From the IMG/VR virus record IMGVR_UViG_3300048691_000182, positions 32,280 through 96,279 of that record: a stretch of 64,000 nt of DNA. One strand, 5' to 3'. Positions 1,050-59,848 of this stretch are shown here, piece after piece. Under the pieces are notes generated by a model. The model was not told where the DNA came from, ran no database searches, and was given only the letters and a program-made list of their open reading frames with translations. The stretch is from a virus. Every line of letters starts with the position of its first letter. The stretch's first letter is position 1. A program made the position numbers and the translations under genes.

Positions 1050-3125
1050 TTACCTTCTAGTACCTGCAAATAAACCTTCTAACATCCCAACGGGAGTATC
1101 TTCTTTTACCCATAATGCCCATGCAGCTGGAGAAGTAAAAGCTTGTCCTGACCGTAGCTTTCTAGCAGCGTTTAAACGCAACTTAGGAATTGTGTGAAAT
1201 TGCTGGTCTAACGATAGCGAACTAAGAGTATTCATGTAGTCCGAGAATACTGTTTCTTCATCAAATACACCGTCCTCGTGTCCAAAGAATCCTCTAGATA
1301 TTTGCATATGCATTACTGAAGACATATCTACGACAGTAAAACTCACATCAATACCCATAGCCTGGTTACTACTATTAAAACCTAGATTGGTGGTTCCTCT
1401 AGTAATACTCAACGAGTCTATCATACCTAATCTAGTCTGGTGTCTACCGTGGTCGTATAGCTCACAAATAAAAGGACTAGTGTAAGACTGCTTACCAGTA
1501 GATAATGGAAGAGCAGCAGCCAACAACATACTGAGCGGTATGTATAAATTCTGCATCTGAGAAATAACATTACCGTAAGGTGATCTTAGCTTAATAGTGT
1601 ACGATGATCTTGGTAAACTAGCAGACGAGCTCTCCCAATGCTTAGGAATATCTACAAAACCGCCGCCAGCTAATTGAAGTAAACCAGACAAACCAAAAGT
1701 ATCAGCTGTGCCAGCAATAATACCTTTTGCCGTATTAACACCCATGTCAATAACAGATCCTATTCCGCCGATATTACCGCCACCCGCAAAAGAAAAGTTA
1801 ACAGATCTACCAGAGCTAGCCATTCCGTTCATTTTACCTTGAATATCCGAATCTCTAACTGAATTACTAAAACTTTCCTGCACTGAGCCTGTGTACTCAA
1901 CTTCAAAAGTTGCAAAAGCAGCACCATCATCCAATTCAGCTTTCAAGTCAGCCCAAAAATTCTTCAACCAACTTCTATTTCTGGTTGGATCATTTTGCTG
2001 CACACCTGGGGTTTCAGGTGGCGCTACGTAATCTGGATCAATTTTAATGTCTTGTTCTGAGCTAAGATCAGCTTTCTTTGAATCAGGGTCTGGCATGGTT
2101 GCTTCAGACTTTAACCAGCTCTGAAGTCTATCGTACCAGCCACGATTCATAGAACTATCGCTTAACATTTCTTGTCCAGCTTTCTGTACCACGCCAGCAA
2201 AATCTGTACTAGAAGAATTATTAAACTGTTCCCACAATTCATTATCGGCTGCAATCTTAAACCTCTGAGCCCTATTAGCAACTGCATAAACATCAATACC
2301 GCCATCTTTAGAAAAGACTTCCGGCATTAAATCATGAAGTTGTTCTAAGAACTCTCTGTCTGCTAAGTATGCTGTGTCAATTTTTTGATCAGTGGGGTCG
2401 TCTGATTTTAAAAGAGAAGGTATTAGACCACGCCCAACAGCAATTTTATTTACAATAGAATTTACAGCAGACCAATAACTCAGCATTGTTGGCTTAAGAT
2501 AATAGTATTTACTAGTCTGTTTCCCAAAGAAAAAACTAGCTACGTGCCCAAGTGCATTTACAGCAGCAAGTTGCCAAACAGCAACACTTGCCACTAAAGA
2601 AATAACTCTACCAACAGCATAGCCTAATTTTTCTGATAAAGTAGTTCTACCGCTTCTTGATAATGCTGCTGCCTTACTGTTGTAATAACCTGTAAAGAAT
2701 TGTGTAAGACTGTTGTATTGCGGGACACCAAACCGCATATGAATTTGTTGCTTATTTTTATCAATAGCTTCATGGTAATATCTACCCATACCGTTCTTAC
2801 CAGTAATGGAGCCTGGCGTAACAAGCTCTCTACCCGGTAATCTACCCATAGATCTTAAGTCCGCATATCTGGTAAACTGTGGTCTAGAATTAACAGCGTA
2901 TGTACCGCCAAGTGAGGTATCTTGAAAACTCAGGCTCACAGTGGAAAAAGTTCTATTGAGCACGTCTACACTTTCTAAATCTCCTGCTGAAACAAAAAAA
3001 GCTTGTTTAGCCCATGCTGCATCTAATACGGTGGATTGTTGGTCAGTAGCAAAAATGTTTTGTTGTTCTATTGTTGGTTCAGCAACGTTACTATCGCCCG
3101 TAGCAGATTCTTTATAAGTGCTCAT
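1050..3125 (-). CDS. Putative virion/baseplate structural protein
   Basis: 691 residues. No family recognised with certainty. A hydrophobic stretch lies near residues 165-200, the middle (about 440-475) is Gly/Ser-rich, and the C-terminal 200 residues have the mixed beta character seen in tail and baseplate proteins. It lies directly downstream of the 2418-residue tail hydrolase gene on the same strand, separated by a hairpin and a run of T/A, so the two are probably expressed together as late structural genes. Virion role is inferred from position and composition. Confidence 0.6.
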   Translation of the reverse strand: MSTYKESATGDSNVAEPTIEQQNIFATDQQSTVLDAAWAKQAFFVSAGDLESVDVLNRTFSTVSLSFQDTSLGGTYAVNSRPQFTRYADLRSMGRLPGRELVTPGSITGKNGMGRYYHEAIDKNKQQIHMRFGVPQYNSLTQFFTGYYNSKAAALSRSGRTTLSEKLGYAVGRVISLVASVAVWQLAAVNALGHVASFFFGKQTSKYYYLKPTMLSYWSAVNSIVNKIAVGRGLIPSLLKSDDPTDQKIDTAYLADREFLEQLHDLMPEVFSKDGGIDVYAVANRAQRFKIAADNELWEQFNNSSSTDFAGVVQKAGQEMLSDSSMNRGWYDRLQSWLKSEATMPDPDSKKADLSSEQDIKIDPDYVAPPETPGVQQNDPTRNRSWLKNFWADLKAELDDGAAFATFEVEYTGSVQESFSNSVRDSDIQGKMNGMASSGRSVNFSFAGGGNIGGIGSVIDMGVNTAKGIIAGTADTFGLSGLLQLAGGGFVDIPKHWESSSASLPRSSYTIKLRSPYGNVISQMQNLYIPLSMLLAAALPLSTGKQSYTSPFICELYDHGRHQTRLGMIDSLSITRGTTNLGFNSSNQAMGIDVSFTVVDMSSVMHMQISRGFFGHEDGVFDEETVFSDYMNTLSSLSLDQQFHTIPKLRLNAARKLRSGQAFTSPAAWALWVKEDTPVGMLEGLFAGTRR

Positions 3126-3157
3126 AATTTCTTTTCTATATTTTTTTTTTACAACAT

Positions 3158-3191
3158 ACTCAGAGTAAACCGTGAAAGGTTTACTCTGAGT
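3158..3191. terminator. Intergenic hairpin
   Basis: A 14-base inverted repeat (3158-3171 with 3178-3191) sits between the two minus-strand tail genes. It may end or weaken transcription between them; no clear U-tract follows on the minus strand. Confidence 0.4.
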
Positions 3192-3203
3192 GCTTTATGT
3201 TAT

Positions 3204-6200
3204 CTAAGTACGTGCCATTGACACTGGGACAGTTTTATTGGGTGTTCTTTGTGGTTGAGCACCCTGCACATTACTCGTATTCATATCATTATTACTAGGT
3301 GTGTTTTTCTCATCTACCTTCATTGCTTTAGGTTGACCAGAATTTTCTAATAATTTCTGTAACACAGACAACATACTAGTCTGTACATCAAGAGATTTCT
3401 TCAAAGTAGTAGAAACATCACCAATAGCATTTGTCATATCCGCATTAGGATTAGACTGAACTTGTTTAGTGGTGGGTACATTAAATCCACCTACATCTGC
3501 TCTAGGGGTCAGAGCAGCACTAATATTTCGATCAGGCTGGCTAGAGCTAGGCGTATTAGTAGAACTACTTTGACTAGGCATCCCAGCTATAGTACTAGCT
3601 GTTGAATTAGGAGCTTTTAGTCCCAAACCAGAACTACCGGGAACACCCGGTTTAACACCTTCTAAACTAGAGCCTGGCTTCAACCCTATACCACCTACGG
3701 GATGGTATTCAACTGGGACACCGTGTTCTTTTACTTTATTCTTGACTCTACCGTCTAATAAAGAATAAACTTCAGAAATAGTCCTAGGTGTATTACCATT
3801 ATAAAAAATACCAGGATTGCTCTTTGCTGCGTCTGGTAATACGTTAGCAGCAACAGTGTTTGGATCAGCACTAAAGAATTTCTTGGCACCTGCTGCACCT
3901 AAGAAATGAGCCATGTATAAATCAGTAGCATTTAAGTCTGATTTACTACCGGACAAGGACTTCATATTTTCTTTAATGTACTCAGCAGTCATTAAAGCAT
4001 TAGCCCTTGAATCCATGGGTGAAGTACCAGGTGTGATGCCGTACTTACTGCCATTTTTCCTAATCATGTCTTCCCAAGTTTTGTCAACAAATTGACCCAA
4101 ACCTGAAGCTGTGCTAGACCCAGCTCTTGCATTAGGATTAAACCCGGATTCGATAGCTATAACAGGGGCTAAGATTTTAGGATCTACTCCAGTCATCTTT
4201 GAAGCACCAAGAATAACGTCTTTCTGACTCTCCCAGCCTTTTGCAGAACTACCCTCTCCAAGAAGAGAATACTTTCCGCCCGTCCCAGGAGTAGAAGATT
4301 TTAAAGCTTCCATCTTGTCGCCAGGGGCTGGTGCTCTAGACGAAGTAGACATCATTCCCTTACCTGATTCACTATCAGCACTGGATGTAATTCCTGCTAA
4401 TCCAGAAGGTCCATCAGATTTAACTTGTGGTTTATCAGGGATAGTTTTCTTAGTAATATCAATCATTGTTCCGGCGTTACCCGCTTTTGCACTTTTATCA
4501 ATAGCTGTTAATACTTTTGAATTATCAGTGATTGCCGGTGACTCTGCTTTAGCAACAGCGCTTGGTGTTACATTCATGTCCAGTAGTTTCTTGGCTAATA
4601 CTGGGTCTCTTGTAGCTAGTTTACTACCAGCAACAGTACCTAGACCGCCACCACCTTTGCCTAAAGAAGCCTGAATAGCTTTTGTGGCTGCTTGAGGATT
4701 TTGTTTAAATCCTTGAATATCAGTTTGAATACCAGCAGGCTCCATATGCCACTTTTCACCCCCAACAGGTCTGGTAAAACCATACTTACGCATTAGGCCT
4801 AGCTTTTCCATTTCATCAAGAGTAGCTGAATTTATATCCACAGCTAAACCAGACTCATGCATACTAGTACCAGGTTTAGCCGCCTTACTTGAGTCAGCGG
4901 CATACAGTTGTTGTTGCTGAGCAAAAGTTCTAAAACCATCGTTGATATAAACAGTCTTACCTGTCAGTTTACCAAACTCTTCAATCATACCGTTTAAGTT
5001 AGCTTTAAAGGCAGGATTTAAGTTATCAATATTAACACCTGGTTTTAATTTTGTAAACTGAGAAGCATTTCTACCATCAGAAATAGCACCTCCAGCTAAA
5101 ACTAATCCATTAGGTGCCGCGCCACTAGTAGTATCAAAACCACCACTTCCTTTAGCACCTAGAGAACTAGACTCTGAATCAGGACCTCCTTGGGGTTTTC
5201 CTGATTCATAAGCGGAAGGATTATTGCCTCTTGCTCTTGGAGATGTATCGGTTGAAGGTTTAACCTTACCTGCATCACTAGTCTGAGGGGTTAGTTTTTT
5301 CTTTATGGCTTCAGCTGCTAATTCATTCTTAGCATCTTCTTGTAATGATTCTAATATATCTTTTAAAATACTAGAATTACTTCCTAAGCTATAACCATCC
5401 CAAGGTGAACTAGTAACACCCCATATTCCAGGTAAAGAAACTAGCTGATTTACAATGGTTAATTCTTGACTAGGTTTTAGTTGAGGTAGTTTACCTTTGA
5501 CTAATTCGGACCCAGACATTTGTTTTACTAAACCTAGATAAGTTAAGTAAACAGGTAAGAATCTTTTCTGAAACCAATTAATCCAATCTTCACCCTTATC
5601 AGTGTTTCTAGAAACCCCAAAAACACCACCTATGGAGTCTATAATTATATTTGCATCAGCCTTGAGACTTGCTTTTCCATCAGCTCCATAAATACTGTTA
5701 TCAGTAATTAGATCTTCTAATTGGCGAAGACAGTTTACTTTCATGGTCTCCATTTTGTGTAAACCATATGCTCTAAATCTAGCGCCCTCTAAAGCCTCGA
5801 TGGTGCCTGCTTTTCTATATCTTGGTGCAGAGCCCTTGGCTGATATATTGCGGGCCTCTGAGGCTGCTGTAGCTGCATCTCCTAAGCCATCAGCTTTGGT
5901 ATTCTTAGCAGTAGAGTTAGTATTTTTCTGATTTAGTTTATTTACTACATCTTCACCTAATTGTGCAGCGGTTGCCACACCTAAACGGGTAGAATCTTTC
6001 TTTTGTTTTAGATCTCTATCTGCGGCAGCTTTAGCTACTTTGAAAGCAGCTTCAACATCAGCACCGTTAGTTACTTTAACATCCGAAGTAATGTCAGGCC
6101 TATACTCAGAATCGTAAGGACCTTCAGGAAAATGAACTAATTCTAAATATTTAACTTTAATGGCTGGTTTAAAATCATCAACCTCAGCTAAAGGTGTTTT

Positions 6201-40898: not shown

Positions 40899-41297
40899 AT
40901 GTCTGTAAGTTTTGAACTCCATAAAACGTACAATTTTAATACACTAGCACCAAGTATCTTGGGTACTAATTACAAGAATATTACTGTCTTGGGTATTCTT
41001 AGTTACGATACAGCTATTAAATATTTTGTACCCGAAACGGTAAGTGTAAGTGTTTATCCGCACTTACCGAACGGAACACCTAGTGATCCAAAAAGGTATA
41101 CGTATCTTTTGTTTCAAACAGAAGCTGGAATTACCTCAATTATTGCACTTGAATGGATTGATAAACCTACTATTGTAGTAGTTAGTTACCAGACAATCAA
41201 TATTTCTGTTCTGCAAGCTTCGGCAGGAGATACTGAGAAGATTAGGGAATCCCTTGTGTTACTAGGGTTTACCAACTTTACTATGAATACAGTATAA
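40899..41297 (+). CDS. Unknown small protein closing the cluster
   Basis: 132 residues, beta-rich (many Val/Ile/Thr strands) with a C-terminal helix and strand (DTEKIRESLVLLGF). Follows the previous stop by four bases. Different in character from the paralogue group; possibly a small SH3- or OB-like fold. Unknown function. Confidence 0.6.
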   Translation: MSVSFELHKTYNFNTLAPSILGTNYKNITVLGILSYDTAIKYFVPETVSVSVYPHLPNGTPSDPKRYTYLLFQTEAGITSIIALEWIDKPTIVVVSYQTINISVLQASAGDTEKIRESLVLLGFTNFTMNTV

Positions 41298-41300
41298 AAA

Positions 41301-41327
41301 TTACTTTGTAATATATTGTATGTAGAA
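41301..41327 (+). promoter_or_regulatory. Probable promoter of the long structured RNA
   Basis: TTAC, then 16 bases, then TGTAGAA (41301-41327), with TATATT between. The same spacing and words occur before the chimallin-like gene (46431) and the tRNA cluster (56309). Confidence 0.5.
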
Positions 41328-41346
41328 ATGATTAGAATCTATAAAT

Positions 41347-41872
41347 TTACGCTTATTCTTTAGACGCCAAGCTAATGGAATATTCTGTTGCAAGGTAGAG
41401 ACAGAATAAGTGTAAGTCTTTTTGTGCTTAACGCACCATTGTGTCTAGAAAGTGTGGTTGTGGAATTACCTACCTAACCCTCAAGATGGTTAAAACACTT
41501 TCAATGTCAGCCACTTTATTTTAATGCCGTCTTGTTCGAGTCAAGACAAAAAGTAAAACTTAGCTACAAGTTCCGGGTTGGGGTGTAATAGCTAAGCCTA
41601 CTGTCTCCGCTAGAAGCAGAACAGATCTTTGTAACGGAATAAAGTGGTCGGTTAATAATAGATGTTAAGATATAGTTAATAGTAAAAAGGTCTTTCTTCA
41701 TTTCTACTTTTTAGCTATTAACTTGAAATTTTGCATGTTCTTTATTAACCAAAAAAGGTAGGTAGTTCAGCTACTTCTTCCGCAGCTAGAAAACTAGTGT
41801 GCGAGCAAGAGAGAAGTAGAATAAGCGCAACAGTCCCAGAGTCATTGACTCTGGGACTTATGCCGTCTTTTT
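41347..41872 (+). ncRNA. Long, highly structured non-coding RNA (about 500 nt)
   Basis: No gene fits this gap, yet it is full of complementary segments. CGCTTATTCT (41350-41359) pairs perfectly with AGAATAAGCG (41818-41827), closing nearly the whole region, and alternatively 41347-41359 pairs with 41403-41415. Other helices: 41511-41520 with 41638-41647 (10 bp), 41650-41658 with 41742-41750 (9 bp), a long hairpin near 41674-41720, CTTAGCT/AGCTAAG near 41559-41595, GTCTTG/CAAGAC near 41529-41547. It ends in a strong terminator. Size and architecture resemble large 'ornate' phage RNAs such as ROOL or GOLLD, but I cannot confirm membership. Confidence 0.75.
41832..41872 (+). terminator. Terminator of the long RNA
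   Basis: 13-base perfect stem (41832-41844 with 41846-41858) followed by a T-rich tract, a classic intrinsic terminator. Confidence 0.8.
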
Positions 41873-41929
41873 ATTTTTTGTTAATTTTTAACTAGTCAAA
41901 GGTATTCTTTGAACAAGGAGAAAACAACA

Positions 41930-44068
41930 ATGTCGGAAGAAGCAAATCCTTTTGTACTACCTATTGATAGTTACAAAAGAAACTTAAATCCAGTTGCCCA
42001 GTATATTGACCAGGCATCTTTTTATATTAGCACTGAATTAGGTATTGATATTGATGAGGCTAAAAAGAAAGTTATTGAAATAATTAGAAACAAGGAAGTT
42101 TCTGGTATTAAAGATCCCGAAGTAAAATATTTACTGCGTGGTGATAATGGGGATAGAACTGAAGAAGTCACCACGTTAACTAGGTATATCCAAGATTCTA
42201 TCAAAGAAGAAGACATAGTAGCACCCACCTTTACTACTTATTTACCACATAAAAAGAAATTATCTTTACTGGTAGATTACGTTGATGATAACGTGGCTGC
42301 TCGTGGTGTGGCTAAAAAACAGATGTTTGCAGCTGAGGCAATCAAGGATGAATTTGTAGCTTCTGTTAAAAACAAAGAACAAACTAATGTTAAACTAGCT
42401 AACAACGCAGTCTCCGGTGCATTGGCTAGTAAGTCTACCCCTCTTAATAACAAAACAGGCCACAGCACACTAACCTCTATTTGTAGAAGTACCTCTGGTT
42501 ATGGTAATGCTAACAATGAAAAATTCCTTAGTGGAAATAGACATTATTGGTGTTTTGATGTTACTTTGAATAACATAATTTCAATTATTACCCATGTTAA
42601 CTATGCTGAAATTACTAATGTAGTAAATAAATATAATTTGACCATTCCTTCAGTTAAAGATGTAATGGAATTAATTATTGAAAATACTAAGAATTATTGG
42701 CGTAATTCAAAAGAAATGTTAGTTATTGAAGAGTTTGTTTATAAACTCTCAGACCTAGAAAGAACAGCTTTTGTTTATGTCGGCGATTTGTTTCATCTGT
42801 CAAAGTTTAACGAAAAGTTAGTTGAAAGACTTTTGAATAAATTATCTACTAAAATTGCTGATAGAGAATTTGACGACCCTATTAAAATCATCAAAACAGC
42901 TAACGAAGATAACGTAAATTTAGCACACCAGATTTGTAGTTTTGAAATGAAGGGTAAGGGTAAAGACTATAAAGCTTTAAGTAAAGAGACTCTAAATACT
43001 GTGGCCGGTACTACCACTAACATTGCTGAAGTGCTCAATAACTATTCCGATCTTTTTAAAGCCTTTTGGGTAACAGATAATTTCCCAGCCTCGGTAGCAT
43101 ACTTCCCTAGTTGCATTCGTAAGTCTGTTTTAACTTCTGATACTGATTCTACTATTTTTACCGTCCAAGAATGGGTAAGAAAACATTGTGGGTCTATTAC
43201 TTTTGACGACAAAGGGATGTCAATAGCTGCAACGGTTGTCTTCTTAGCTTCGCAGACAATCACGCATTTGCTTGCTATGATGTCTGCTAATATAGGTGTA
43301 GAGAAAAAACGCCTTAAGCAGATCGCCATGAAGAATGAATTTAAGTTTGATATCTTTGTACCAACCCAGGTGGCTAAACACTACTATGCTCTTATTAGTT
43401 GCCAAGAGGGTAATATATTTGAACACTTTAAGAAAGAAATTAAAGGTGTGCATTTAAAATCTTCTAATGCTCCTAAGAAAATCATTAAGCTTGCTACAAA
43501 GTTAATGGAAGACATTATGATGACTTTAATTAGGTCCGAGAAGATCAAGTTATCAGAAGTATTAAAACTTGTTGCAGGCGCTGAAAGAGAAATTATAAGG
43601 TCTATGAAAGCAGGTGAAAACGAATACTTTCGTTTAGCTCAAATTAAACCGTCTGATTCTTATACAACCGAGAAAGAATCTTCACCTTATAGACACCATG
43701 ACTTCTGGGAAGAAGTATTTGCTCCCAAGTATGGAAACATAGCTCCACCTCCTTACAATTGTATTAAGTTCTCCACTGTTCTTGAAACACCTACCAGTAC
43801 TAGAATGTGGGTTGAGTCTATAGAGGATAAAGAATTGGCTTTGCGCTTAACAAACTGGATGACTAAAAATAATAGAAATGTCTTACCTACTATCTTCTTA
43901 TCTCAAGAACTAGTAAAGGCACAAGGCATACCGTTAGAATTAAATAATGCAATTGATATTCGTAGAATGGTTTTTGATTTATCTAAAATAACCTACATCA
44001 TTTTAGAAACTTTGGGTGTTTATATAAGCAACGATAAACAAACTAAATTAGCTTCTGACTTTTATTAA
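41930..44068 (+). CDS. DNA polymerase, family B, polymerase domain
   Basis: 712 residues from ATG 41930, chosen for its AAGGAG site; a TTG at 41909 lacks one. Near residue 147 the segment NKEQTNVKLANNAVSGA matches motif B of family B polymerases, LTSDTDST near 400-407 is motif C (YGDTDS) with both catalytic aspartates, and VAKHYYAL near 480 matches the KKRY region. I see no 3'-5' exonuclease domain, so proofreading may be a separate protein, as in split polymerases of giant phages. It replicates the phage genome. Confidence 0.8.
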   Translation: MSEEANPFVLPIDSYKRNLNPVAQYIDQASFYISTELGIDIDEAKKKVIEIIRNKEVSGIKDPEVKYLLRGDNGDRTEEVTTLTRYIQDSIKEEDIVAPTFTTYLPHKKKLSLLVDYVDDNVAARGVAKKQMFAAEAIKDEFVASVKNKEQTNVKLANNAVSGALASKSTPLNNKTGHSTLTSICRSTSGYGNANNEKFLSGNRHYWCFDVTLNNIISIITHVNYAEITNVVNKYNLTIPSVKDVMELIIENTKNYWRNSKEMLVIEEFVYKLSDLERTAFVYVGDLFHLSKFNEKLVERLLNKLSTKIADREFDDPIKIIKTANEDNVNLAHQICSFEMKGKGKDYKALSKETLNTVAGTTTNIAEVLNNYSDLFKAFWVTDNFPASVAYFPSCIRKSVLTSDTDSTIFTVQEWVRKHCGSITFDDKGMSIAATVVFLASQTITHLLAMMSANIGVEKKRLKQIAMKNEFKFDIFVPTQVAKHYYALISCQEGNIFEHFKKEIKGVHLKSSNAPKKIIKLATKLMEDIMMTLIRSEKIKLSEVLKLVAGAEREIIRSMKAGENEYFRLAQIKPSDSYTTEKESSPYRHHDFWEEVFAPKYGNIAPPPYNCIKFSTVLETPTSTRMWVESIEDKELALRLTNWMTKNNRNVLPTIFLSQELVKAQGIPLELNNAIDIRRMVFDLSKITYIILETLGVYISNDKQTKLASDFY

Positions 44069-48689: not shown

Positions 48690-50629
48690 ATGGCAATTAG
48701 TTTAGAGCTAGTAAATAACGATAAAGTTTTCTACGAGTTACCTAACCCACCTATTATTATCAATGATGTACTCAATACATCAGAAGAAGAAAGAGAAGCA
48801 TTACAAAAACTTATCTTTAGTAAGTACGGCTCAGAGCACCTAAGTAACTTGCCCTCGTGTGATTGTGATGAAGGTGTTGGTATTGTTGGTGAATTCAACA
48901 TCGGTGTCTATTGTCCTAATTGCAGAACCTGTGTCAAGCCACCCATTGACAAAGAAATCAATTCAATACTCTGGATGAGGTCGCCAATAGGGGTGCAGCG
49001 TCTTATTAATCCAATAGTCTGGACTATGATTAGTGAGCGTTTTACAATCTCTAAGTTTAATATCATTCAATGGTTATGCGATACTGGGTATTCAGTAGAT
49101 GCTAAAGTACCAAGTGAGATAGAACTCATCCAAGAAGCAGGCATAACAAGAGGTTACAATAATTTTGTAACTAACTTCGACGCTATTATGGGTTTTCTTT
49201 TTAGTATAAAGAAATTGTCTTTAAAAGTAAAAGGACCTATTGACCATCTTCAGGTATTACTAAAAACACATAGAGAATGTTTATTTAGTAAACATATTCC
49301 GCTACCCAATAAAGCTCTTCTAATTATTGAAGAGATTAATGTAGGTACATATGTAGACCCTGTTGTTCCAGTAGCTATCAATGCTATCCAGACAATTGCC
49401 AGTATTGATGCACCAGGTAATACTTTTAGCCTTCGTGTAAAAGAAAACAGGACTGTTAAATCATTAGCTACCTTGGCTGAGTTTAACGAAATGTATGCAC
49501 ATGTGGGTCTAGGTGGTAAACCAGGTATTCTTCGAAGAAACGTATTTGGTACTAGTAATAACTTTAGTTTCCGTACAGTTATTACTTCAATTACAGAACC
49601 CCATAAAGAAACAGATATACACATACCTTGGCCTGTAGCAATTACTGTATTTAATTACCACCTGATTAACCATTTAAAGAAAATGGGATTCACTCTAAAT
49701 GAATCTATTGGGTATTTGAATAAACATGCTTACAAATACGATCCTTTGATTGATAGTATTTTTGACAAGTTTTTGAATGCAGGTAAAGGTAATGGAATTC
49801 CTCTTACACTTGGTCGTAATCCAAGTCTAGGTAAGTCTAGTCTTCTTAGTGTATTTATTACTAAGATTATCAAAGACCCTAAAATAGTAGCTACTAAAAT
49901 TAGTATACTAATTACAGCCCATCTTAATGCTGATAGAAACTTAAGTAGTATTTAAGTATTAAGTATGTAAAATGAGGAGAAACATTTTATGTACAAAATT
50001 TAATAGAACATAAAACTAAAAAAAAAACGTTTTAGAGTTCGCTATTTAAGATAAGTCCTTTTATTTAGTAATAAATAAAAAGTATTCTTTTGAATTGCTG
50101 GAATAACTTGTTAGATCAGTAAACTACAATAATCCTGAAAAGAGATTATGAATGTTTAAAAATTACTGAGTAGAGTCAATCAGCAGCTAAGACCCTAAGC
50201 TCGTGAGAGTATGGGTAAAGTTCAACGACTATCCCGTAGCTGGGAGTAGGGGTTAGCAACTCCGAAGTGGAAGACTACCTAACTAGCAATAGAAGGTAGA
50301 AGATATAGTCTGTTCCTCACTGGAGACGTGAGGCGGGTGGAATACACCGGGTGTTTTTAAGAGTAGCCACTGGCGAGCGACTAACACTGGACAAAAAGTT
50401 TGACGGCGACGAATGCAACTTCTGTTTATTCTTGGACGAAGATCTTGCTAAAGAGTTTGAAAGTTTGAAACCACACAAAAGTGTTTTCAGTCTTAATTCT
50501 CCAAGACAGGTATCTGGAAATTTGTCCATGCCTAAGCCAGTGGTATCTAGTATTGCTGAGCTCATGAGCTCAAAAGAAATACCTGATCCTGCTAAGTTAG
50601 AGAAAATGAAGAGTTTGTATGTAGACTAA
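48690..50629 (+). CDS. Non-virion RNA polymerase beta' N-terminal part, interrupted by a group I intron
   Basis: Exons 48690-49934 and 50399-50629 join to 491 residues. C57, C59, C75 and C78 form a zinc-ribbon-like site (CDC...CPNC). Joining the exons restores NAD|FDGD (residues 413-419), the absolutely conserved magnesium-binding motif of beta', preceded by GRNPSLGKSS, equivalent to NRAPTLHR. The C-terminal beta' must lie elsewhere, as in phiKZ gp55/gp74. It is the transcription enzyme made after infection, used inside the phage nucleus. GAAAG ribosome site. Read without splicing, exon 1 meets a stop 21 bases into the intron. Confidence 0.88.
49935..50398 (+). ncRNA. Group I self-splicing intron without endonuclease gene (464 nt)
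   Basis: The 5' exon ends in T (49934) and the intron ends in G (50398), as group I introns require. The core has TTCAACGACTA with GACTA at 50227-50231 pairing to TAGTC at 50306-50310 inside AAGATATAGTC (P7), and an AATCAGCAGC element near 50169. About 230 bases of AT-rich sequence precede the core. No open frame of endonuclease size. Exact P1 pairing was not resolved. Confidence 0.85.
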
Positions 50630-56346: not shown

Positions 56347-56420
56347 GTGCCGTTAGCTCAGCGGTTAGTAGCAGCGGCCTCATAAGCCGTTGGTCGTCAG
56401 TTCAAATCTGACACGGCACA
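56347..56420 (+). tRNA. tRNA-Met (CAT anticodon)
   Basis: Cloverleaf with acceptor GTGCCGT/ACGGCAC, anticodon CAT at 56381-56383 and a TTCAAAT T-loop. CCA is encoded (56421-56423). With C34 it could instead be the lysidine-modified tRNA-Ile; the sequence alone does not decide. Confidence 0.9.
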
Positions 56421-59256: not shown

Positions 59257-59329
59257 TCCTCGATAACTCAGTTGGTAGAGTACTTGACTGTTAATCAAGG
59301 TGTCCCTGGTTCGAGACCAGGTCGAGGAG
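59257..59329 (+). tRNA. tRNA-Asn (GTT)
   Basis: Acceptor TCCTCGA/TCGAGGA, anticodon GTT at 59290-59292 in loop CTGTTAA, T-loop TTCGAGA, CCA encoded at 59330-59332. Confidence 0.93.
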
Positions 59330-59339
59330 CCAAATAAAT

Positions 59340-59412
59340 CTCTCCATAGTTAAACTGGATATAACAGCAACCTTCTAAGTTGCGATTACATGTTCAAGTC
59401 ATGTTGGAGGGG
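59340..59412 (+). tRNA. tRNA-Arg (TCT)
   Basis: Acceptor CTCTCCA/TGGAGGG with one U-G pair, anticodon stem GCAAC/GTTGC with TCT in loop CTTCTAA, T-arm ACATG/CATGT, CCA encoded at 59413-59415. Confidence 0.9.
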
Positions 59413-59419
59413 CCAGTGT

Positions 59420-59504
59420 GGAAGTGTGGCAGAGTGGTCTAATGCACCGGTCTTGAAAACCGGCGATGGGAAACTATCCGTGAGTTCGAATCTCACCACT
59501 TCCG
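59420..59504 (+). tRNA. tRNA-Ser (TGA)
   Basis: Acceptor GGAAGTG/CACTTCC, anticodon stem CCGGT/ACCGG with TGA, a long variable arm as in class II tRNAs, and CCA encoded at 59505-59507. Confidence 0.93.
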
Positions 59505-59544: not shown

Positions 59545-59848
59545 GGCCCTGTGATGGAATAGGTAGACATAAATTAGTTGTGTCCTATAGTAGAAATATT
59601 GTAGAAAAATGGTGTAAATTCAGGGAAAGCTTAACATGTAATGATGATGCCAATCCTGAGCGAAACTTTCGCAGTAATGTGAGATGACGTGCAGAGACTA
59701 TAATCACCTATCTTAACAAGTAAAGCTGAAGATAAAGGGATAGTCCACGTAACAACAGTAATAATACTGATAGTGAAAACTATAGTTATTTGAACAGACT
59801 TAAAATCTGTCGCCGAAAGGCATCCCGATTCGAGTTCGGGCAGGGCCA
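59545..59848 (+). tRNA. tRNA-Leu (TAA), interrupted by a group I intron
   Basis: Exons 59545-59570 and 59793-59848. Acceptor GGCCCTG/CAGGGCC, D-stem ATG/CAT, anticodon stem ACAGA/TCTGT with TAA at 59801-59803, class II variable arm, T-arm CCCGA/TCGGG. CCA is not encoded (CCT follows), unlike the other tRNAs. The intron falls between positions 25 and 26, at the end of the D-stem, not in the anticodon loop. Leader and trailer extend the acceptor to 18 perfect pairs (59534-59551 with 59841-59858). Confidence 0.88.
59571..59792 (+). ncRNA. Group I (IC3-like) intron in tRNA-Leu
   Basis: 222 nt. TCAGG (59620-59624) pairs with CCTGA within GCCAATCCTGAGC, and GCAGAGACTA (59691-59700) pairs through GACTA with TAGTC (59741-59745) in AAAGGGATAGTCC; these match cyanobacterial tRNA-Leu intron core words. 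P1: exon GACAT with intron GTGTC (59580-59584), giving the required U-G at the splice site. P10: exon AAC with GTT at 59577-59579. The intron ends in G (59792). No ORF. Confidence 0.88.

Follow-up and report, generated by a model that had tools for sequence, protein, structure and literature searches.

Among phage-encoded structured RNAs, the pRNA of Bacillus phage phi29 forms part of the packaging motor, and ROOL and GOLLD, which like OLE are long, strongly structured and non-coding, also occur in phages. ROOL and GOLLD assemble into RNA-only cages, GOLLD binds ribosomes in pull-downs, and a tRNA-island setting has been reported for both (PMC12286853). A second point of comparison is provided by the bacterial small RNAs LhrC, RNAIII, RsaE, SprD and FsrA, whose C/U-rich loops are single-stranded and can pair with Shine-Dalgarno sequences; the CU-rich loops of LhrC, with their UCCC motif, bind Shine-Dalgarno regions of proven targets (PMC4132741). 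Phage non-coding RNAs remain few, one count in 2021 listing a mere 21, and those seen experimentally by Grad-seq in phiKZ, from the PHIKZ298/297 intergenic region and the 5' UTR of p40, measure about 100 and 180 nt (PMC8545117).

Here we describe large structured non-coding RNAs lying between the homologues of PHIKZ049 and PHIKZ050 in relatives of phiKZ. That they form a real RNA class is very likely and well supported; the class has not been described before, and its members measure about 310-600 nt, in many phages roughly 400-550 nt. The RNA is much longer than the phi29 pRNA, which it resembles in being phage-encoded and structured, and it occupies a locus other than those of the phiKZ Grad-seq RNAs; phiKZ itself has about 200 nt at this place, without such an RNA. 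Compared with ROOL, GOLLD and OLE it is shorter, matches none of their covariance models and is not near tRNA islands, and it combines a recurrent UCCUU loop and a fixed place with a fold that varies between subgroups. It shares with the LhrC-type RNAs a single-stranded CU-rich site complementary to the Shine-Dalgarno sequence, and differs from them in its UCCUU motif, in being phage-borne and several times larger, and in having candidate rather than proven targets.

Genomic context of the RNA

The window, that is the whole 64,000-nt stretch of DNA analysed, comes from a 96-kb virus record. The locus is bounded by two genes.

40899-41297 (+): PHIKZ049 homologue (phrog_3235), upstream boundary of the locus
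41930-44068 (+): PHIKZ050-type DNA polymerase gene (phrog_2927), with the ribosome-binding site (RBS) AAGGAG

The polymerase is 49% identical to that of Burkholderia phage FLC9 and about 35% identical to that of phiKZ. This PHIKZ050 homologue and the PHIKZ049 homologue upstream of it mark the contig as a piece of a phiKZ-like jumbo phage genome. The two genes are separated by a gap of 632 nt (41298-41929), in which neither strand holds an ORF of at least 50 aa. The sequence of the gap RNA folds with a minimum free energy (MFE) of -169.9 kcal/mol, equivalent to a z-score of -6.4 against dinucleotide shuffles, none of the 100 shuffles folding as well; a repeat on a slightly different window stretch gave -6.6. 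These results bear out the original prediction of a non-coding structured unit before the DNA polymerase gene.

Fold and ends of the window RNA

The elements assigned to the RNA and its surroundings are the following.

41297-41304 (+): AAAATTAC, resembling the phiKZ middle-promoter motif AAanTTACc, about 21 nt upstream of the putative start
41315-41322 (+): ATTGTATG, TATG start motif (TATG at 41319-41322), putative 5' end at G41322
41322-41879 (+): structured non-coding RNA, inferred extent
41347-41417 (+): 5' local hairpin of -23 kcal/mol, followed by CTTTTTG and thus itself terminator-like
41350-41359 (+): 5' arm of an alternative long-range helix (CGCTTATTCT), predicted pairing
41524-41531 (+): internal ATGCCGTC, a match to the word found after terminators in this phage group
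41674-41723 (+): central hairpin with a pyrimidine apical loop, predicted fold
41693-41699 (+): UUUCUUC in that apical loop, unpaired probability 1.00, window variant of the UCCUU loop
41818-41827 (+): 3' arm of the alternative long-range helix (AGAATAAGCG), predicted pairing
41832-41858 (+): GC-rich terminator stem of 12 bp (arms 41832-41843 and 41847-41858) with an AUU loop
41860-41879 (+): ATGCCGTC (41860-41867) and T-rich tail, the conserved 3' end signature

The promoter that had been proposed for this unit is not of the sigma-70 type, no such site being found at the RNA start. In phiKZ, the final G of TATG is the first nucleotide transcribed, and the AAanTTACc motif of middle promoters is reported to be centred at about -24 (PMC4666361). 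The window start signal, composed of TATG and AAAATTAC, fits a phiKZ-type phage promoter better than a sigma-70 one, and the RNA probably begins about 25 nt before the start given previously, near 41322. The word TATTGTATG is found at the same place in the window and in four relatives (L039, L057, L102 and L041), but AAAATTAC and TATTGTATG are both short, and chance matches to them are common in the AT-rich window. TATGTAG was also considered as a promoter word and was rejected, as it shows no enrichment in the window.

At the 5' end, two pairings of the same strand had been proposed, and both exist: 41347-41359 pairs locally with 41403-41415 (13 pairs), and 41350-41359 pairs over a long range with 41818-41827 (10 exact pairs). 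The long-range form is the weaker of the two. It costs 5.9 kcal/mol relative to the local hairpin, and a comparable long-range 10-bp match is present in 4% of shuffles, so we treat this predicted closing helix as a possible alternative and not as a finding.

The expected terminator is indeed found, as a 12-bp GC-rich stem, with the qualification that its T-run is set off from the stem by TTATGCCGTC. This spacing is the reason why a generic terminator scan missed it, and the same spaced arrangement recurs 3' of hairpins across the phage group. Consistent with this, ATGCCGTC lies 3' of strong hairpins at many sites (e.g. L004:3935, L012:1313, L065:2909 and L008:3992(-)), and at 78% of its 49 occurrences the 45 nt upstream fold below -12 kcal/mol, compared to 9% for the reversed word. 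ATGCCGTC may serve the phage-encoded RNA polymerases as a termination or 3'-end element. The window RNA carries the full signature of terminator hairpin, ATGCCGTC and T-rich tail, which marks terminators of the phage group in general and is not specific to this RNA.

In three relatives (L057, L102 and L112), a first long hairpin, which in L102 and L112 has a T-run after it, occurs within about the first 200 nt of the gap, and a second TATG-like start comes later. These three gaps may, from their sequence, yield two separate RNAs, and the 5' hairpin of the window with its CTTTTTG may correspond to their first hairpin.

Conservation of the locus among relatives

Relatives were gathered by polymerase-alignment searches, which yielded about 95 viral contigs together with a small number assigned to bacterial genome bins; a scan with a single protein had found no polymerase relatives, and the alignment query recovered them. 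Two of the bacterial-binned contigs, from a Sulfuriferula MAG (L109, about 245 kb) and a Rhodoferax MAG (L112, about 216 kb), carry the phage polymerase locus and are probably phage contigs inside bacterial bins.

In the polymerase tree, the window falls in a clade of 61 rows, and in most of its phages non-coding sequence of about 400-730 nt separates the two genes. This clade includes the cultured phage FLC9, in which the gap with the putative RNA lies at 2709-3244 of record LC667451.1, on the minus strand and oriented towards the polymerase gene. By comparison, the PHIKZ049-PHIKZ050 gap mostly measures about 90-340 nt in phages of the phiKZ, Eowyn and LucasX types. This division has exceptions on both sides: the gaps of L095, L096, L099, L103 and L106 are short, those of 201phi2-1 and L113 hold small protein genes, and others have inserted ORFs. 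Some phages within the clade keep only 100-317 nt, so that loss or shortening of the RNA can occur. The place before the polymerase gene is conserved, and a terminator hairpin stands upstream of the polymerase RBS in nearly every member.

Strong folding is likewise a property of the locus. The mean MFE z-score of 41 gap loci, including a few from outside the window's clade, is -5.0, while coding stretches of the same contigs, used as controls, average -1.3; individual folds can be weak, as in L019 (-1.4), L070 (-1.3) and L044 (-1.3).

Between subgroups, nucleotide similarity is confined to the terminator and some brief segments, outside which the window RNA aligns with no subgroup; a nucleotide search with it in phage records gave chance matches only, and no alignable relative was found. 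An exact 19-mer match in L001 was discarded as it lies in an unrelated coding region. The window RNA is for this reason assigned to the class by its location, length, strength of folding and 3' signature, which make its membership likely. Since the RNAs of different subgroups do not align with each other, common descent is argued from position, size and theme. Rapid sequence change under a conserved fold would also explain why homology searches had missed this class.

Covariation within subgroups

Four subgroups could be aligned internally: A (FLC9-like), B, C (six sequences, mean identity 59%) and D (two sequences). Their consensus folds are stronger than those of column-shuffled alignments, with z-scores of -9.1, -6.0, -17.1 and -5.2, respectively, and in all four the consensus fold is stronger on the sense than on the antisense strand. 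In group C, 50 of the 102 pairs show changes on both sides, while the shuffle mean is 27.0 and none of 500 shuffles reaches the observed count; a control with slid partners gave 15-19 such pairs. Eight covarying pairs fall in the stem of the pyrimidine loop (helix 12). The covarying pairs that had been called for as evidence are thus present within groups A-D, the window itself having no alignable relative in which to look for them. The outermost helices of group C show double changes in just 2 of 9 pairs, so that a 5'-3' closing helix does not covary well among the relatives.

The supposed build of ROOL, GOLLD and OLE holds for size and complexity only. At gathering scores, Rfam searches, which included the ROOL and GOLLD models suggested as a check, returned no ROOL, GOLLD or OLE match in the window or in 18 relatives. 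No known family was found in 41200-42000 at E≤10, nor in FLC9 and L051 at E≤1, where there was nothing except one unrelated chance match. The tRNA-island setting is not found either, the nearest tRNA being about 14 kb away, at 56347. Since both the model and the setting tests failed, the RNA is a member of no named family. The idea of a new class, by contrast, is strengthened by its conserved position, by the covarying folds within subgroups and by the lack of an Rfam match.

A recurrent UCCUU loop

We scanned all 5-mers for an unpaired state, relative to shuffles, in 24 diverse RNAs of the class. The most enriched unpaired word is UCCUU, found in 16 of the 24 RNAs compared to a shuffle mean of 1.2 (z 14.8), and the next-ranked words, UUCCU, CUCCU and CCUUU, overlap it. 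Its usual site is an apical hairpin loop. The anti-Shine-Dalgarno sequence of 16S rRNA has UCCUU as its core, and the predicted loop of L109 reads CCUCCUUA, which is the 16S rRNA 3' end. A clearly unpaired UCCUU is absent from the other eight RNAs, window included; variants are found in the window (UUUCUUC) and in L112 (UUCCCUUU), and a few members have no such loop at all. The window variant would need one G-U pair to bind GGAGAAA in a strong RBS.

In the same scan, no complementary purine word is enriched in the unpaired state within the RNAs, and therefore the partner of the loop is expected in trans. No consistent internal pseudoknot partner was found either.

Candidate targets of the loop

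We compared the loops with the RBSs of ten genomes or large contigs, leaving the RNA locus out. When the best tenth of RBSs is considered, a loop matches its own phage better than it does the other nine genomes (mean -0.71 kcal/mol, p 0.005), and the same preference is seen for the best 3% (p 0.007); this preference is modest, and was obtained with mechanical gene calls and one chosen loop per RNA. A control stretch inside genes shows no own-genome preference (p 0.14 and 0.29), and there is no difference for the median RBS (p 0.22).

The best orthologous target group is an uncharacterised protein of 205-220 aa (phrog_3254), with a family-wise p of about 0.04. The L101 loop matches its RBS over 14 perfect base pairs (G008:169419), and the L070 loop over 16 pairs including G-U (G007:236458), the two sites lying about 8-10 kb downstream of the RNA. 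This gene does not stand out as a target in the window. We consider it a candidate target and a lead for future work; a single orthologous target common to the genomes was rejected, as the best group is marginal after correction.

Possible functions of the RNA

Our best explanation, which we advance tentatively on the basis of sequence comparison, is an independently transcribed, trans-acting RNA that regulates translation by binding Shine-Dalgarno sequences. The RNA would be transcribed from its TATG start, putatively by a phage RNA polymerase, and would act in trans. Its UCCUU loop, equivalent to an anti-Shine-Dalgarno sequence, would pair with the Shine-Dalgarno regions of a set of phage mRNAs, possibly with host mRNAs among them, and this pairing would alter ribosome access or mRNA handling, the remaining fold displaying and protecting the loop. 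The more ambitious proposal, that a large RNA class of phiKZ-like phages mimics the 16S anti-Shine-Dalgarno tail as a phage-wide regulator of translation initiation, seems to us rather unlikely. In phiKZ-like phages of the nucleus-forming type, mRNA is made in one compartment and translated in another. An RNA with a loop resembling the ribosomal tail bears on translation control in phiKZ-like phages, and its presence in the cultured phage FLC9 makes this question directly testable.

Pairing with Shine-Dalgarno sequences is generic, and therefore the pyrimidine loop may instead bind a protein. A rival explanation is a scaffold or oligomeric RNA like ROOL, GOLLD or OLE, whose function would be the fold itself, as a cage or in sequestering a protein or ribosomes, with the pyrimidine loops as contact sites for a protein or a part of the ribosome. 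The size of the RNA, its strong multibranched fold and its residence in phages are all compatible with such a role, as are the cages of ROOL and GOLLD and the ribosome pull-down of GOLLD (PMC12286853). Nevertheless, the failed model matches and the location outside tRNA islands weigh against it, the folds vary widely among subgroups, unlike a conserved quaternary design, and there is no purine-rich loop complementary to UCCUU that could make kissing contacts. We find this explanation somewhat improbable.

It is also conceivable that the gap is a turnover hotspot that gathers unrelated structured inserts, the window element being non-homologous to the others. The subgroups indeed lack mutual nucleotide alignment, small protein genes occupy the gap in 201phi2-1 and L113, and L035 and L064 carry differing inserts. 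However, length, non-coding state, strong fold, 3' signature and UCCUU loop recur clade-wide, and the fold is strongly conserved wherever sequences align, which leaves a hotspot quite unlikely. Phage 201phi2-1 was rejected as a member of the RNA class because its gap holds a small plus-strand gene. At this site (L009:3560-3883, record 42581-42904), the annotation places gp82 on the minus strand; a gene of 107 aa, with an RBS before it and a terminator after it, is plausible on the plus strand.

The position directly upstream of the polymerase gene suggests another role, as a cis-acting leader of its mRNA, in which alternative folds would attenuate transcription or hide the polymerase RBS. The two mutually exclusive pairings of the window 5' strand would suit such a leader, loop and polymerase RBS are complementary over 11 bp in L018 and 10 bp in L041, and in FLC9, L018 and L041 the polymerase RBS ranks within the top 10%. 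Across 22 loci, however, the polymerase RBS is an average target, with a mean rank percentile of about 0.50 within its own locus; in the window it ranks 13th of 43 loop targets, and a swap test between loops and polymerase RBSs is weak (p 0.038). We therefore rejected the polymerase RBS as the specific target of the loop. A strong terminator also separates the RNA from the polymerase gene. L064 carries two opposite-strand ORFs (region 2205-2872(-)) between the RNA and the polymerase gene, while in L035 a different insert, an ORF at 1578-2360(-), lies upstream of the RNA, and the RNA blocks of the two are 94% identical over 313 nt despite inserts on different sides. Together with the terminator, these arrangements argue for a self-contained RNA gene and not a leader, a role that we judge very unlikely.

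Lastly, an unrecognised small protein gene, of the kind found at the same place in 201phi2-1 and L113, is exceedingly improbable and largely refuted by the compensatory changes, by the lack of an ORF of at least 50 aa in the window gap and by the fact that no ORF of at least 30 aa stays open throughout all members of group A, B, C or D.

Other RNA elements in the window

Two group I introns are found elsewhere in the window. One, at 50037-50333, lies just after an ORF (48690-49955) that matches positions 1-418 of 478 of the RNA polymerase beta subunit phrog_2987, and this phage RNA polymerase gene is probably split by the intron. The second, at 59561-59771, is located directly 3' of a tRNA Asn-Arg-Ser cluster (59257-59504).
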